DNA of 64,000 nucleotides, taken from contig NZ_JACSDK010000018.1 of the NCBI RefSeq assembly GCF_014925385.1, positions 62,001 to 126,000 of the forward strand, read 5' to 3'. The translations under genes were made by a program, and so were the position numbers. How positions within the stretch are numbered: position 1 is the stretch's first letter; the number at the start of each line of letters is the position of its first letter. The notes beneath the pieces were generated by a model. That model did no database searches and was not told the origin of the DNA. It saw nothing but the letters and a program-made list of their open reading frames with translations. This document shows, in pieces, positions 8,533 through 62,363 of this stretch. This stretch comes from Pelagibius marinus. Lineage in GTDB: Bacteria > Pseudomonadota > Alphaproteobacteria > Kiloniellales > Kiloniellaceae.

Positions 8533-9897
8533 TCAAGCCGTCGAGCGCTCGCCCTCGCCGGGCAGGGGCACGGGCACGCCGTCTTGGCTGTACTGCTTCA
8601 ACTTGTTGCGCAGGGTGCGGATCGAGATGCCGAGGATGTTGGCGGCATGGGTCCGGTTGCCCAGGCAGTGCTCCAGGGTGTCGAGGATCAGGTCCTTCTC
8701 CACGTCGGCCACGGTGCGCCCGACGAGCTGCTTGGCCTCGCCGCCGTTCTCGTCGGTGTCGGCTTCGACCTCGGCGGCCTGCTGGTGCCGGTTCAGGTTC
8801 TGGCCGGTCAGCATGATCGCCTCGGGGCCGATCCTGCCGTCCTGGGCCAACAGCACGGCCCGGTGCATGGTGTTCTCCAGTTCGCGCACGTTGCCGCGCC
8901 AATGGTGGGCCCTCAGCACCTCCATGGCCGGCGGCGTCACATCCATCGTCGGCACACCGTTGGCCTCTGAGTACTTGGCGGCGAAGTGCTGGGCCAGGAT
9001 GGGAATGTCCTGGGGCCGCTCGCGCAGGGCCGGAAGCTGGATGTTGACCACGTTGAGGCGGAAGTAGAGGTCCTCGCGGAAGTTGCCGTTCCTGACCTCT
9101 TCCTCCAGGTCGCGGTTGGACGTGGCGATGAGGCGGATGTTCACCTTGATCGGCTGGCCGCCGCCGACGCGGTCGATCTCGCGTTCCTGGATGGCGCGCA
9201 GCAGCTTGGCCTGCAGGCGCGGATGCATCTCGGAGATTTCGTCGAGCAGAAGGGTGCCGCCGTTGGCTTCCTCGAACTTGCCGATGCGGCGGGTCACGGC
9301 GCCGGTGAAGGAGCCTTTCTCGTGGCCGAAGAGCTCGGATTCCAGAAGGTTTTCGGGGATGGCGGCGCAGTTGACGGAGATGAAGTGCTGGTTGGCACGC
9401 TTGGACTTGGAGTGAAGAAAGCGGGCCATGACCTCCTTACCGGTGCCGGACTCACCGGTGATGAGGACGCTGGCGTCCGACGGCGCAACCTGCTCCGCCA
9501 GGCGCAGCACGGCGCTGGTGGCCGGGTCGCGGAACACCAGGGTGCTGGTCTCCTCCGAAACGGCGGAGAGGACGGCGGCGATCAGCTCGGCGTCGGGCGG
9601 CAGGGGGACGTACTCCTGCGCGCCGGCGCGGATGGCGTCGGCGGCGGCGGCGGGCTCCGGGCCGATGCCGCAGGCGATGACCGGCACCGAGATCCGCTCG
9701 GACTTCAGGCTCTTGCAGAGAGTGCCGATGTCCAGGTTGACCTCGACCATGACCATGTCCGCGCCCTGGCCTGAGCGCAGCGCGGTCAGCGCCGCGTCGA
9801 TGTCGTCGACGTGGGCAACCTTTGCGCCGCTTTCCAGGGCCAGCTTGCCGGCCGTGGCGATGTGTCCGTCCAGTGTTCCCACAATGAGAAGCCGCAT
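8533..9897 (-). CDS. flbD: Sigma-54-dependent flagellar activator FlbD
   Basis: 454-residue enhancer-binding protein in three parts. Residues 1-115 are a receiver-like domain. An AAA+ sigma-54 activation domain follows, with Walker A GESGTGKE at 148-155 and the sigma-54 contact loop GSFTGA at 195-200 (GAFTGA variant). A Fis-type helix-turn-helix lies at the C-terminus ([20 protein letters not shown]). The receiver is degenerate: Glu52 stands where the phospho-acceptor Asp is expected and the Lys of a TKPF motif is absent. Caulobacter FlbD is controlled by FliX rather than by ordinary phosphorylation, and a fliX gene lies at 38922. Its likely targets are the sigma-54 promoters listed here. Confidence 0.92.
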
Positions 9898-19487: not shown

Positions 19488-19943
19488 TTAGGCGGCGTGT
19501 ACGTCCAGGCGGAAGCCGGCGGCTTCCAGGCGGCGCAGAATGGTGGCTTCCATCGAAGCCTCGTCCGCACCTTCGGCCATCCGCTGGTCGACTTCCTGCC
19601 AGGCATCGCGCAGGGGCTTCAGGAGATCGATGATCTTCGCTGCGCCCTCGGCGTCGCTGTGGATGTTGATGCGGATGAGCTGTGCCAGAACGAAGCGGTA
19701 GAGTTGGCCGAGCTGTTCGGCGATCTCTCCGCCCTTTTCCATGTCCAGGCTCATGTGCAGGGTGCCGACGATCTCGGTCACCACGTTGACGCGGTTGCAG
19801 CGTTCCTCGATGTCGTTCTGCTGCATGGCTTTGATCGCTGCGGTCAGCGAGAGAATGGCCTCGTTGTAGAGCATCACGACGACTTCCGTCGGACGGGCCC
19901 TCTTCACCTCGCTGCGAAAGGCATCGGTAGCGGTAAGCGGCAT
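19488..19943 (-). CDS. fliS: FliS-family flagellin chaperone (copy 1)
   Basis: 151 residues. I placed the start at the ATG at 19943, behind GGAGATAGAACC, because everything upstream in that frame is non-coding in character. FliS motifs are VVMLYNEAILSLTAAIKAMQ, LDMEKGGEIAEQLGQLYRFV and LKPLRDAWQEVDQR. FliS binds the flagellin C-terminus to prevent premature polymerisation. This copy heads the fliK-flgD-flgE operon, divergent from the flagellin genes. A second fliS-like gene (26210) follows fliD in the usual place. Confidence 0.85.
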   Translation of the reverse strand: MPLTATDAFRSEVKRARPTEVVVMLYNEAILSLTAAIKAMQQNDIEERCNRVNVVTEIVGTLHMSLDMEKGGEIAEQLGQLYRFVLAQLIRINIHSDAEGAAKIIDLLKPLRDAWQEVDQRMAEGADEASMEATILRRLEAAGFRLDVHAA

Positions 19944-19970
19944 GGTTCTATCTCCGTGTTGCTTCCCCGA

Positions 19971-19986
19971 GGCAGGGACCGCGCCA
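19971..19986 (-). promoter_or_regulatory. Sigma-54 promoter for fliS1-fliK-flgD-flgE
   Basis: On the minus strand TGGCGCGGTCCCTGCC has the -24 GG and -12 GC separated by the required 10 bp. It matches TGGCACG-N4-TTGC at most positions and ends 28 bp before the fliS1 ATG, so the leader would be very short. FlbD-like palindromes lie 180-220 bp upstream. Confidence 0.55.
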
Positions 19987-20166
19987 GGCGGCCTGACTGC
20001 TTCGGGGGCTGCGGAGCGGTGGACGGGTAACGTCCGGCCACTCCAAGTCACGGCAGATAGAACGCAAGTTGCGGGCCAAGTCGGCTGCTTGTTGAAAACC
20101 GGCTGTTTCCTGCGGTTGTCCGCAAGGCGCCGCAGGCCACGGGCCGGGGCGGGGCCTTTCCTGCCT

Positions 20167-20204
20167 GGCAGTTCTTGCAGGGTGACAGGACAAGCTTTGC
20201 CCGG
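20167..20204. promoter_or_regulatory. Pair of FlbD-like (ftr-type) palindromes
   Basis: GGCAGTTCTTGCAG at 20167-20180 and GGACAAGCTTTGCCCGG at 20188-20204 resemble the palindrome YGGCAR-N3-TTGCC that recurs before sigma-54 promoters in this window. They sit between the divergent fliS1 and flagellin-1 promoters and could serve either. The rest of the 660-bp spacer between fliS1 and flagellin 1 holds only the sites listed separately. Confidence 0.5.
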
Positions 20205-20357
20205 TCGGCCGGACCGCGGTGCGGGCGAGGCGCGCGATGGAGAGGCTGGGAGTCTTATAAGGTGTCGCTCCGGCAGGCGGTGGCCGCGCGCTGCGCCGGC
20301 GCCGGGCCGGGGCGCGCAGCGGCGCGGCCCCGCGGTGTGGCTCCACGAGCATTGCAC

Positions 20358-20500: not shown

Positions 20501-20604
20501 GATGACAGGGCGCCCACCTGCTTCCGGGTCCGTCCCGGGGCAGGAGATGCTGGCAAGCAGCCAGCGCTCAGGGCTCTGCCCACTAAGGTCATTGGAGTAG
20601 TCTC

Positions 20605-21703: not shown

Positions 21704-21805
21704 TAGATAGGGTCAGGCTGCGCCTAAGCCCTTTGGGCGGCGCAATTTTTACCGGCAGGAAGCCGGTTCTCGGGGCTCTGCCCCTAAGGTGATTGGAGTA
21801 GACCC

Positions 21806-22922: not shown

Positions 22923-22938
22923 TGGCATCCCCCTTGCG
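22923..22938 (+). promoter_or_regulatory. Sigma-54 promoter of flagellin 3
   Basis: TGGCATCCCCCTTGCG keeps TGGCA and a perfect TTGC with 10 bp between GG and GC. Transcription should start near 22948, giving a leader of about 115 nt that contains the CsrA-type hairpin at 23011-23033. Confidence 0.82.
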
Positions 22939-23010
22939 TAAGGGATGACGGAACTTTGTGCCGGCTGTGTCGGGCGCAGGGAACCACAGGCCAAGTAGGC
23001 CGCAATCCGA

Positions 23011-23033
23011 CCCTTCTGCAGGAAGCAGAGGGG
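23011..23033 (+). promoter_or_regulatory. CsrA-type hairpin in the flagellin 3 leader
   Basis: CCCTTCTGC (23011-23019) pairs with GCAGAGGGG (23025-23033), with one G-U pair, around the pentaloop AGGAA. CsrA dimers prefer GGA displayed in exactly such a loop. A second AAGGA motif forms the Shine-Dalgarno about 10 bp before the ATG, so bridging of both sites would block translation, as for Bacillus hag (established there). csrA (60607) and fliW (33257) are both in this window. Confidence 0.65.
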
Positions 23034-23062
23034 AAAACTCTTCAAGTAGAAGGAACATCACA

Positions 23063-23896
23063 ATGCCTGTTGTTGCTACCAATACGGCGGCGAACTCCGC
23101 CCTTCGTTTCCTGAACTACAATTCGTCCATGGCGCAGAGCTCGGTCAGCAAGCTGGCTTCGGGCTCCCGTATCGTGAAGGCTTCTGACGACGCCGCTGGC
23201 CTCGCCATCGGCAGCCGTCTGAAGGCTGACGTGACGGCCTTGACCCAGGCCGGCATCAACGCCGCCCAGGGTTCCTCGGTGCTGCAGGTGGCCGATGGTG
23301 GTCTCGGCCGTATCGGCGATGTGCTGCAGCGTATGAAGGCCCTGGCGGCCCAGTCGCTGTCGGGTGTGCCGACCGATACGGAGCGTGGCTTCATCGACGC
23401 CGAGTTCCAGGCGCTGTTGGCCGAAATCGACGGCATCCAGGATACCACTCGCTTCAACGGCGATGGTCTGCTCAACGGTGACGTCACGACGACCGATTAC
23501 TTCGTCGGCACCAACCTGGGTGACAACATCACGATCGACTACAGCGCCCTGTCCGGCGCCGCGACTTACGGCACGGCGGGTCTCAGCCTGACCGGCATGA
23601 GCGTGAGCACGGCTGCTGCTGCCTCTGCGGCGATGACGGCGGTCGACGCCGCGATCGACCTCATCTCTGAGGCTCGGGCGAACGTCGGTGCCCTGATCTC
23701 CCGTTTCGAGTTCCGCGGTCAGCAGGTCGCGACCTCGCTGGAGAACATCGACGCGGCCAAGTCGTCCATCATGGACGTCGACCTGGCGGCCGAGCAGAGC
23801 AAGCTCGTCTCCAACCAGGTTCTGGTCCAGGCGGCCGTTTCGGCCGTTTCCCAGGCCAACCAGATCCCGCAGTCCCTGCTGCGCGTTCTGCAGTAA
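23063..23896 (+). CDS. Flagellin (copy 3, probable major flagellin)
   Basis: 277 residues with the same D0/D1 plan (ATNTAANSALRFLNYNSSMA; C-terminal NQIPQSLLRVLQ) but clearly diverged from copies 1 and 2 in the centre. The start is the ATG at 23063 behind AGAAGGAACATCACA. Codon use differs from its neighbours: many CGT, GGT, GCT and TCC codons where the others use CGC, GGC and GCC. That suggests very high expression and hence the major filament subunit (inference). It has the strongest enhancer array, the CsrA-type leader and a very stable 3' hairpin. Confidence 0.95.
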   Translation: MPVVATNTAANSALRFLNYNSSMAQSSVSKLASGSRIVKASDDAAGLAIGSRLKADVTALTQAGINAAQGSSVLQVADGGLGRIGDVLQRMKALAAQSLSGVPTDTERGFIDAEFQALLAEIDGIQDTTRFNGDGLLNGDVTTTDYFVGTNLGDNITIDYSALSGAATYGTAGLSLTGMSVSTAAAASAAMTAVDAAIDLISEARANVGALISRFEFRGQQVATSLENIDAAKSSIMDVDLAAEQSKLVSNQVLVQAAVSAVSQANQIPQSLLRVLQ

Positions 23897-26143: not shown

Positions 26144-26209
26144 ATCGAATCGCCTGCCGCGGGCGGGTCGGGCAAGAAGTACGGTTGAATAGTTGAAGTC
26201 GGGAACGTG

Positions 26210-26674
26210 ATGGAACCCTACAGCGCCCTTTCTGCTTACAAGGCTGCCTCAAACATGACGTCGTCGCTGGGCGCCGTCGTCATGCTCTATGACGGCATGA
26301 TCAAGGAAGTGAACAAGGCGAAGGTGGCCATTGAAGAGGGTCGTATCGAGGATCGCTTCAATGCGACACAGAAGGCCTGCCAGATCCTGCTGGGCCTGCA
26401 GTCTCATCTCGATTTTGAGAACGGCGGCGACATCTCCCTGATGCTCGACCAGTTCTACCATACGATCTTCCGCGATCTTCAGCAGGTTAATATGTCCAAT
26501 TCCGCCAAGGCCTGCGACGAGGTCGCCAATGCCCTCGGCGAAGTGCGGGCGAGCTGGGCGGAACTGGCCAAGAGCGAGCGCCAGGCCGGGCAGGGTGCCG
26601 GTTCGGACAGCCAGGCAGCGAAGGGGGACGAGCATGACGCCCCGCAGTCCTCTTCGGTGACGCTCTCGATCTGA
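26210..26674 (+). CDS. fliS: FliS-family flagellin chaperone (copy 2)
   Basis: 154 residues from the ATG at 26210 (a GTG directly before it would add one residue). FliS motifs are MEPYSALSAYKAASNMTSSL, AVVMLYDGMIKEVNKAKVAI and the LDFENGGDISLMLDQFYHTI helix. The C-terminal 35 residues are Gly/Ser/Gln-rich and poorly conserved. It has the canonical position after fliD, so this copy probably serves flagellin. Copy 1 at 19488 is quite different in sequence. Confidence 0.88.
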   Translation: MEPYSALSAYKAASNMTSSLGAVVMLYDGMIKEVNKAKVAIEEGRIEDRFNATQKACQILLGLQSHLDFENGGDISLMLDQFYHTIFRDLQQVNMSNSAKACDEVANALGEVRASWAELAKSERQAGQGAGSDSQAAKGDEHDAPQSSSVTLSI

Positions 26675-29996: not shown

Positions 29997-30413
29997 TTAC
30001 AGGGTATGGCGCACTTCGTAGCGGTCGTTGGGCATGATGTACTGCCAGGCTTGGCGATTTGCCGTGTCGATGAAGATCGGCGCGCGCATGTTGACCGAGG
30101 TCTCGAAGCTGTTGCCCATGCGCCGGAAGGTGGCAATCAGCATGATGGCGCAATTCTGAACGGCGATGTTCAGGTGCTGCAGGGCAGCGTCGATGTCCTT
30201 GGGCTCGATCAGGCCGGTCGCGGGCTCGTAGGGCAGGACGATGAAGGAGAGGTCGTCCGGCTTCAGGGCCTGCAGCAGCATGAAGCTGGACTGCGTCTCG
30301 CTGGGGATCATGGCCAGGCCGAAGGAATTGTAGCCGACGAAGCCGGGAATGCCCTTCGGGAAGGTTAAGGCCTGGTTAAGGTCGAATTCGATGACGCCGA
30401 ACCGCGTCTTCAC
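29997..30413 (-). pseudogene. Truncated fliW duplicate
   Basis: 138 codons nearly identical to the C-terminal 138 codons of fliW at 33257 (about five residue changes, e.g. LKPDD for LEPDD and DIDA for DLDA). Homology stops at about 30433, just upstream of a GTG codon that is an internal Val in the full gene. The copy therefore lacks the true start, the N-terminal extension and the AAGGAG ribosome-binding site. It keeps an open frame and could be translated from GTG 30413 if transcribed, but I see no promoter. Interpreted as a fragment left by a partial duplication. Confidence 0.75.
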
Positions 30414-33256: not shown

Positions 33257-33769
33257 TTACAGGGTATGGCGCACTTCGTAGCGGTCGTTGGGCATAATGT
33301 ACTGCCAGGCTTGGCGATTTGCCGTGTCGATGAAGATCGGCGCGCGCATGTTGACCGAGGTCTCGAAGCTGTTGCCCATGCGCCGGAAGGTGGCAATCAG
33401 CATGATGGCGCAGTTCTGAACGGGGAGGTTCAGGTGCTGCAGGGCAGCGTCCAGGTCCTTGGGCTCGATCAGGCCGGCGGCGGGCTCGTAGGGCAGGACG
33501 ATGAAGGAGAGGTCGTCCGGCTCCAGGGCCTGCAGCAGCATGAAGCTGGACTGCGTCTCGCTGGGGATCATGGCCAGGCCGAAGGAATTGTATCCGACGA
33601 AGCCGGGGATGCCCTTCGGGAAGGTTAAGGCCTGGTTAAGGTCGAATTCGATGACGCCGAACCGCGTCTTCACGGTCGTCGTCTGTTCCGCACCGGAGGG
33701 AGGCGCCGAGGCGTACCCGCCGTGGCTGGCTGGAGCTGCCATCCTGGCTGCCTGAGTCTCGCGGGGCAT
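33257..33769 (-). CDS. fliW: Flagellar assembly factor FliW
   Basis: 170 residues. The FliW core is VKTRFGVIEFDLNQALTFPK, then GIPGFVGYNSFGLAMIPSE and IMLIATFRRMGNSFETSVNM. A 32-residue extension precedes the usual start. I keep the ATG at 33769 because AAGGAG stands 7 bp before it. FliW binds CsrA and flagellin alternately, so free flagellin releases CsrA to repress flagellin translation (established in Bacillus and Campylobacter). It is last in the flgI-flgL operon. A truncated copy lies at 29997-30413. Confidence 0.92.
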   Translation of the reverse strand: MPRETQAARMAAPASHGGYASAPPSGAEQTTTVKTRFGVIEFDLNQALTFPKGIPGFVGYNSFGLAMIPSETQSSFMLLQALEPDDLSFIVLPYEPAAGLIEPKDLDAALQHLNLPVQNCAIMLIATFRRMGNSFETSVNMRAPIFIDTANRQAWQYIMPNDRYEVRHTL

Positions 33770-60606: not shown

Positions 60607-60867
60607 TTAAGAGCCGCCGCTCTCGCTTTTCGGCACCGCCGGCGGCGCAGCGCCCTTGAGCGCCTCGGCCAGGGCCTCGTCGTCGCCCACGGCGGCGGCG
60701 CGGTTTTCTTCCTGGATGCGCTCGAAAATCTCGCGGCGCAGGACCGTCGCATCGCTTGGAAAGGTAAATCCAAGCTTAATCGACTTGCCGCGGATATCGA
60801 CCACGGTCACCTCGATATTGTCATTTATGATGACGGATTCGCCGATTTTGCGTGTCAGATAAAGCAT
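60607..60867 (-). CDS. csrA: Carbon storage/translational regulator CsrA
   Basis: 86 residues. The CsrA fold is complete in the first 60: MLYLTRKIGESVIINDNIEV, then VVDIRGKSIKLGFTFPSDAT and VLRREIFERIQEENRAA. Conserved Arg6 and the GFTFP/RREI RNA-binding edge are present. A 25-residue Ala/Glu/Ser tail is extra compared with the usual 60-65 aa. It is head-to-head with flgB across a CtrA-type box. With fliW at 33257 and a loop-displayed GGA in the flagellin-3 leader, it probably controls flagellin translation. Confidence 0.94.
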   Translation of the reverse strand: MLYLTRKIGESVIINDNIEVTVVDIRGKSIKLGFTFPSDATVLRREIFERIQEENRAAAVGDDEALAEALKGAAPPAVPKSESGGS

Positions 60868-61931: not shown

Positions 61932-62051
61932 GGCGCAGGCGATATCCCGCGCTGAGCCCAGCGCAACCGTTACGCGGCGCCAGGAGGGCGCCGCCGACCG
62001 CCAGGACGGCCCCCATAGGCACCCGAGGACCGGGCGCCTGAGGAGCGAGCC

Positions 62052-62363
62052 ATGACCATGAATATCAACGGGGCTGTTCAGGCCTACGACCGGATGCTGC
62101 GCCAGGGCGGTTCCGCGCCCGGCCTGGAGGCGCGCGACAGCGGCGGCGCCGATTTCTCCTCCCTGCTGCAGCGCGCCGCCGAGCGCGCCGCCGACACCAT
62201 GCTGGAAGGCGAGAAGCAGACCATCCAGGCGGGGGCCGGGGCGGCCGACCTGACCCAGGTGGGTATGGCCGTGTCCAAGGCCGGGATGACCCTGGGGACC
62301 GTGGGGGCCCTGCGCGGCAAGGTGGTCCAGGCCTACCAGGAAATCCTGCGGATGCCGGTCTGA
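62052..62363 (+). CDS. fliE: MS-ring/rod adaptor FliE
   Basis: 103 residues. The FliE C-terminal part is ADLTQVGMAVSKAGMTLGTV and VVQAYQEILRMPV, and the N-terminal half holds a helical FSSLLQRAAERAADTMLEGE. A good ribosome-binding site (GAGGAGCGAGCC) precedes the ATG. FliE joins the MS-ring and rod and is exported early. It is 120 bp after flgC. Confidence 0.92.
   Translation: MTMNINGAVQAYDRMLRQGGSAPGLEARDSGGADFSSLLQRAAERAADTMLEGEKQTIQAGAGAADLTQVGMAVSKAGMTLGTVGALRGKVVQAYQEILRMPV

Follow-up and report, generated by a model that had tools for sequence, protein, structure and literature searches.

Results

The window analysed here, 64,000 nucleotides of the genome of Pelagibius marinus (5.44 Mb in 35 contigs), carries by Pfam match three flagellin genes, flaG, fliD, two fliS, two fliW, flgK, flhA, fliN, a gene for a sigma-54 activator, fliE and csrA (Table 1); the names flhA and fliN are our reading of FHIPEP and FliMN_C matches. 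A preliminary description of this DNA had placed csrA and fliW in the window and had reported flbT to be missing. Both genes are indeed present above the Pfam cut-offs, and the genome has no match to FlbT. We note that the flagellin cluster lies between the two fliS genes, and that this genome alone among 61 of its order has two fliW matches.

Table 1. Positions of the genes, sites and predicted hairpins discussed in the text
Feature	Position	Strand	Details
sigma-54 activator	8533-9897		Pfam match
fliS	19488-20261	-	
sigma-54-type site, flagellin copy 1	20485		
Hairpin, copy-1 leader (ATG 20605)	20549-20565	+	GCUGGC-AAGCA-GCCAGC, without GGA
sigma-54-type site, flagellin copy 2	21688		
Hairpin, copy-2 leader (ATG 21806)	21751-21767	+	ACCGGC-AGGAA-GCCGGU
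sigma-54-type promoter-like site, flagellin copy 3	22923-22937	+	TGGCATCCCCCTTGC; pattern match
H1, copy-3 leader	22989-23001	+	GGCC-AAGUA-GGCC; only 4 bp in its own sequence
H2, copy-3 leader	23011-23033	+	CCCUUCUGC-AGGAA-GCAGAGGGG; 9 bp, one G-U pair; folding
H3, copy-3 leader	23040-23052	+	CUUC-AAGUA-GAAG; 3' arm is first half of Shine-Dalgarno
Shine-Dalgarno, copy 3	23049-23054	+	GAAGGA
Flagellin copy 3	23063-23896	+	Flagellin_N and Flagellin_C
fliS	26207-26674	+	
fliW copy 1	29997-30413	-	PF02623
fliW copy 2	33257-33628	-	PF02623
csrA	60607-60867	-	86 aa; PF02599, 74.5 bits, cut-off 27
fliE leader hairpin 1	61974-61994	+	GCGGCGCC-AGGAG-GGCGCCGC
fliE leader hairpin 2	62000-62010	+	GCC-AGGAC-GGC; kept in 9 of 9 leaders
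fliE	62052-62363	+	PF02049

Folding of the copy-3 leader predicts three hairpins, H1, H2 and H3, of which H1 and H3, like the second fliW, were absent from the preliminary description. H2 is the hairpin that the preliminary description had singled out, a 9-bp stem with one G-U pair that displays an AGGAA pentaloop between the arms CCCTTCTGC (5') and GCAGAGGGG (3'). The Shine-Dalgarno sequence contains AAGGA (23050-23054), as had also been claimed, and this is a possible second contact for CsrA; GGA is present both in the H2 loop (23021-23023) and at the Shine-Dalgarno (23052-23054). A sigma-54-type promoter-like site lies upstream and similar sites precede the other two flagellin copies, the pattern being weak alone, with three matches in the window and a shuffle mean of 1.44. 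If the RNA starts near position 22949, as this site would imply, all three hairpins would fall within the transcript. A 34-nt piece spanning H2 has a folding energy of -16.2 kcal/mol (z -3.65), equalled or bettered by 1 of 200 shuffles, and a 58-nt piece reaching the start codon gives z -3.62 (0 of 200), while a 101-nt piece that includes early coding sequence has a z of only -1.72 (10 of 200), with H2 still in the minimum-energy fold. AGGAA by itself is frequent, occurring 144 times in the window against a mean of 80.5 in shuffles. C-G-closed pentaloop hairpins of the form ANGWN with a weighted stem of at least 6 number four in the window (across 40 shuffled windows the mean is 0.9 and the highest count 2), and three of these four sit in flagellin or fliE leaders.

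The suggestion that flagellin copies 1 and 2 lack such a hairpin, and that control might therefore be specific to copy 3, does not stand. Both leaders have a pentaloop hairpin in the same place, with AGGAA in copy 2 and AAGCA in copy 1, and the distance from loop start to ATG is 49 nt in copy 2 compared with 43 nt in copy 3. Among the three flagellin copies of the window, it is the pair of AAGUA hairpins that is confined to copy 3. Leaders of copy-1/2 type in other Pelagibius and in Kiloniella have AGGAC, AGGCA, AAGCA, AAGAA or AGGAG loops, and these loops are absent from some Denitrobaculum-type leaders. By eye, copy-1/2-type leaders of Denitrobaculum-like genomes (L048, L050 and L051) have instead a hairpin near -40 whose loop is GNRA-like.

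To follow the array in relatives we aligned 31 leaders of copy-3 type, drawn from 17 records of same-genus and named genomes and spanning the three hairpins, with the L056 repeats, a near copy (L057 3846), leaders cut by a contig end and all leaders of copy-1/2 type omitted. The structure for the covariation test was fixed beforehand from the loops and was drawn from the same sequences. Standard pairs occupy 96.2% of 584 cells, and 13 of 19 pairs, all within H1 and H2, change on both sides. Such two-sided changes fill 108 cells as opposed to 32.0 in shuffles, none of 500 shuffles equalled any of the five measures, and a shift of the partners by 1 to 3 columns lowers pairing to between 35 and 61%. 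Kinship among the rows and the use of a structure drawn from those rows inflate these scores; the margin is nevertheless large. In relatives H1 is a 7-pair helix (95.9% paired, with two-sided changes in six of seven pairs) and H2 is 94.7% paired, with two-sided changes in seven of eight. The stem of H3 is invariant in all 31 leaders, and its support within the family is conservation only, without covariation; in genomes from elsewhere in the class, varied stems enclose an H3-type loop.

Covariation of the stem was one of two features that the preliminary description had asked of related leaders. The other, an invariant GGA in the loop, is not what we find. GGA is present in 22 of 31 H2 loops, in one H1 loop and in no H3 loop. 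The H2 loops comprise AGGAA (10), AGGAG (6), AGGAC (4), AAGAA, AUGAA and AGGAU (2 each) and five others found once; those of H1 comprise AAGUA (20), AAGAA (5) and six others found once, and those of H3 are AAGUA in 30 leaders and AUGUA in one. A pentaloop of the form A-N-G-(A/U)-N fits 86 of the 93 loops (29 in H1, 26 in H2 and 31 in H3), and the conserved element is A at position 1, G at position 3 and A or U at position 4, rather than GGA.

One alternative is that CsrA acts here in its canonical manner, reading only the GGA motifs of H2 and the Shine-Dalgarno, and that H1 and H3 serve RNA stability, folding or masking of the Shine-Dalgarno. The frequency of GGA in H2, a Shine-Dalgarno that is invariant in 31 of 31 leaders and the GGA loops ahead of fliE described below would all be expected of it, but among H2 loop positions 1 to 4 conservation is weakest at the first G of GGA (G in 23 leaders, A in 4, C in 2 and T in 2), with positions 3 and 4 each kept in 29 of 31. 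In addition, the H1 loop is kept while its stem covaries, so H1 also appears to be read by something, and the CsrA encoded in the window is without the usual Ala36, His43 and Gln29. We consider this alternative unlikely. That no protein is involved, with hairpins that serve only to cover the Shine-Dalgarno or to shield the mRNA, accords with the pairing of H3 to the first half of the Shine-Dalgarno in 31 of 31 leaders, but it leaves unexplained a loop sequence that is conserved where the stem sequence varies, and the fourth position of A-N-G loops near Shine-Dalgarno sequences, which in class and order sets is A or T for 43 of 44 loops; we regard it as very improbable.

Tandem AGGAN hairpins also precede fliE, near csrA. 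In nine fliE leaders (those of the eight genus genomes and of G023) GGA is present in all 18 loops, although in one leader the first stem has just 3 ungapped base pairs. Among 20 further fliE leaders there is a clear first hairpin in 11, and our script caught none in the other nine. The first loop is ANGWN in G010, G021, G041, G046 and G059, AGGGA in G025, and AGAAA or AGAAG in five FlbT-bearing genomes; the last three loops depart from A-N-G-W-N, and this weakens the case for a strict code.

In two FlbT-bearing genomes (L181 of G033 and L184 of G029) we note three AGAACG/AGAATG stretches per flagellin leader, the last of them at the Shine-Dalgarno. These stretches have the same layout with another loop, and could be sites for FlbT or for CsrA. 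We did not accept AGAAC loops as marks of FlbT sites, given the AGAAA and AGAAG loops ahead of fliE in five FlbT-bearing genomes, which suggest that loop type may follow lineage.

Another RNA-binding protein might read the ANGWN pentaloops, leaving CsrA and FliW as bystanders. Loops without GGA are common, and within a genome the loops ahead of flagellin and of fliE are of one type (AGAAC and AGAAA/AGAAG in some FlbT-bearing genomes), as if a single factor were at work. Nevertheless, we found no candidate for such a protein in the window, FlbT, which we dismissed as the reader in this genome, is absent, and the loops are one base off the ANGGA pentaloop, which is reported to be well bound by RsmE (PMC4005645). 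We think it improbable that such a protein is the reader.

A model built from the 31 leaders (R1) recovers the complete array in 17 of the 23 genomes of the family, as well as ahead of one flagellin of G021. Its match in G023 is the fliE leader, and we dismissed as chance its matches in G000:C14 (within a coding frame), G002:C15 and G057:C55. Beyond the reach of R1, in leaders picked by flagellin position, the arrays are looser, with a strong hairpin upstream and, in many cases, UCC-AAGUA-GGA on the Shine-Dalgarno. Here we counted, by script rather than by eye, ANGWN pentaloops on at least five Watson-Crick pairs and ANGWA hairpins near the Shine-Dalgarno (SD-ANGWA). Among 24 leaders from 15 FlbT-less genomes of the order, 13 have the former (shuffle mean 0.10) and 13 the latter (0.07); one or other is found in 13 of the 15 genomes, including 13 of 13 outside the own family, and the two FliW-bearing members of that family in the set (G047 and G048, one leader each) have neither in the sampled leaders. 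Neither type was found in nine leaders from six FlbT-bearing genomes of the order. Among 38 leaders from 35 FliW-bearing genomes of the class, 16 have an ANGWN hairpin (shuffle mean 0.19) and 20 an SD-ANGWA hairpin (0.17), with either in 22 genomes and neither, in the sampled leaders, in 13. The association of leader hairpins with FliW that these counts suggest is not corrected for common descent. Seven of 39 order leaders were dropped for a mis-set start (L156, L159, L161 and L176, and the FlbT-bearing L185, L188 and L191) and one leader, that of G021 in L108, was brought in. Of 40 class regions we set aside L214, in which no ATG was found, and L231, which lies at a contig end, and some of the class rows retained may have a mis-set start (e.g. 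L201, L213, L217, L219 and L233).

Rfam covariance models gave a single match up to E 1 between 20300 and 24300, inside coding sequence, and we rejected a described Rfam RNA as the identity of the leader, since the window's leaders and nine related loci gave only chance matches at E 1 or better. This holds for flg-Rhizobiales (RF01736), a listed alphaproteobacterial structured RNA given by name in PMC2864571, where the name suggests flagellar genes; its model matched no relevant part of these sequences at E 1 or better.

The preliminary description supposed that the locus would be an unusual mixture of two regulatory systems, and the distribution of the proteins does not bear this out. In the genus, CsrA is present in eight of eight genomes, FliW in seven and FlbT in none. 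CsrA is found in 53, FliW in 39 and FlbT in 13 of the 61 order genomes, FliW and FlbT occurring together in two (G015 and G016), and in 240 genomes of the class FliW is found in 42 and FlbT in 80 (79 over the cut-off), the two together in none (P 5e-9 for exclusion, kinship ignored).

The CsrA of the window has S29, F34, T35, F36 and L43 and a C-terminal extension. S29, F34, F36 and L43 are shared by 31 of the 32 CsrA proteins read from the order, compared with Q29, V/I34, A36 and H43 in E. coli CsrA, RsmE and 5dmb, and the sole exception is the second CsrA of G038 (L122), which has the canonical Q29, A36 and H43. In three CsrA proteins taken from beyond the order, position 34 is F, position 36 is F or Y and position 43 is Y. 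CsrA proteins of FlbT-bearing genomes show the residues of the order as well, and the change is thus not linked to FliW. The usual RNA-contact residue is Ala36, which is among 19 residues involved in RNA binding by C. jejuni CsrA, and with A36V roughly double the amount of protein is required for a gel shift (PMC6692469); Gln29 of RsmE touches the penultimate pair (PMC4005645).

Discussion

Most of what is known about the control of flagellin in Alphaproteobacteria comes from FlbT and FlaF in Caulobacter and its relatives, and to our knowledge FlbT is the one known binder of flagellin leaders in this class. Our data point to a second, apparently exclusive flagellin-control system. We propose that the copy-3 leader is part of a CsrA-FliW-flagellin translation switch, a reading to which we give a probability of roughly 0.55, and that its hairpins probably let CsrA hold back flagellin production. 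We infer that CsrA is the reader, FliW its antagonist and repression the effect. A CsrA dimer would bind at least two of these pentaloop hairpins, including one that lies on or beside the Shine-Dalgarno, and bound CsrA would keep ribosomes off the flagellin mRNA; export of flagellin would then free FliW, which would remove CsrA and allow translation to start.

This proposal draws on the covariation of H1 and H2, the two-site layout formed by the H2 loop and the Shine-Dalgarno GGA, the AGGAX type of the H2 loop, the presence of CsrA and FliW with FlbT absent, the spread of the hairpins in FliW-bearing genomes and the GGA loops of fliE. Against it, GGA is missing from 9 of 31 H2 loops, 30 of 31 H1 loops and all 31 H3 loops, and canonical CsrA would not be expected to tolerate this. 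FlbT-bearing order genomes whose flagellin leaders are without ANGWN hairpins have CsrA too, and the sampled leaders of 13 of 35 FliW-bearing class genomes, and of G047 and G048, are without hairpins of either type. In addition, AGGAX is a weak ligand of RsmE, bound at low micromolar concentration (PMC4005645).

We found nothing in the open-access literature on CsrA binding to alphaproteobacterial flagellin leaders. The preliminary description likened the leader to B. subtilis hag, and the resemblance is real as far as layout goes: a two-site arrangement is reviewed for glgC and hag (PMC7652899), and the CsrA-FliW-Hag system shares with this locus an upstream site and a Shine-Dalgarno site in a flagellin leader together with csrA and fliW. 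Unlike B. subtilis, however, there are three pentaloop hairpins here, mostly with non-GGA loops, several flagellin copies and fliE have related hairpins, and CsrA binding is putative. The flaA leader of C. jejuni likewise has two stem-loops, with FliW as antagonist (PMC6692469), but the consensus there is mAwGGAs, whereas the fourth loop base here is A or U, not G, and C. jejuni CsrA keeps Ala36, A36V weakening flaA binding, where the window CsrA has Phe36. In its AGGAX loop, C-G closing pair and G-C penultimate pair H2 is like SL3 of P. fluorescens RsmZ, which is bound by RsmE (PMC4005645). Pentaloops of this variant closed by C-G, such as those of SL3 and SL4, are Csr/Rsm ligands in the low micromolar range, and strong binding is reported for ANGGA pentaloops (PMC4005645); the H2 loop is without the fourth-position G of the canonical ANGGAN/ANGGA. 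RsmZ, however, is a sponge RNA and not an mRNA leader, and AAGUA and AUGUA lie outside the set formed by SL3 and SL4. Protein control at the 5' UTR of an alphaproteobacterial flagellin gene, as proposed here, has a parallel in FlbT and fljK of Caulobacter, but FlbT is encoded in none of the eight genus genomes; a review gives the FlbT binding motif as not known (PMC4347634).

Taken together, the loops without GGA, the altered CsrA surface and the spread of both make a shifted RNA code worth testing. Many alphaproteobacterial CsrA proteins may read A-N-G-(A/U)-A instead of ANGGA, a change matched by aromatic residues at 34 and 36 and by the loss of His43, and tandem hairpins may tie the translation of flagellin and fliE to export via FliW in FlbT-less lineages; we offer this fuller account tentatively and hold it to be possible but on balance doubtful. 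Loops of H1 and H3 type differ from those known as CsrA targets in other bacteria. If CsrA does read ANGWA, an RNA regulator in wide use would have changed its specificity in nature, and both the amino-acid residues and the RNA bases concerned would already be at hand. The leader RNA is a ready assay, and G038, which has one canonical CsrA beside a second CsrA, is a possible control for the change of specificity.

Lastly, we note that a flagellin leader on a contig labelled Opitutia (L076, near 1991) contains GACGGC-AGGAG-GCCGTC, which could reflect transfer, misbinning or chance.
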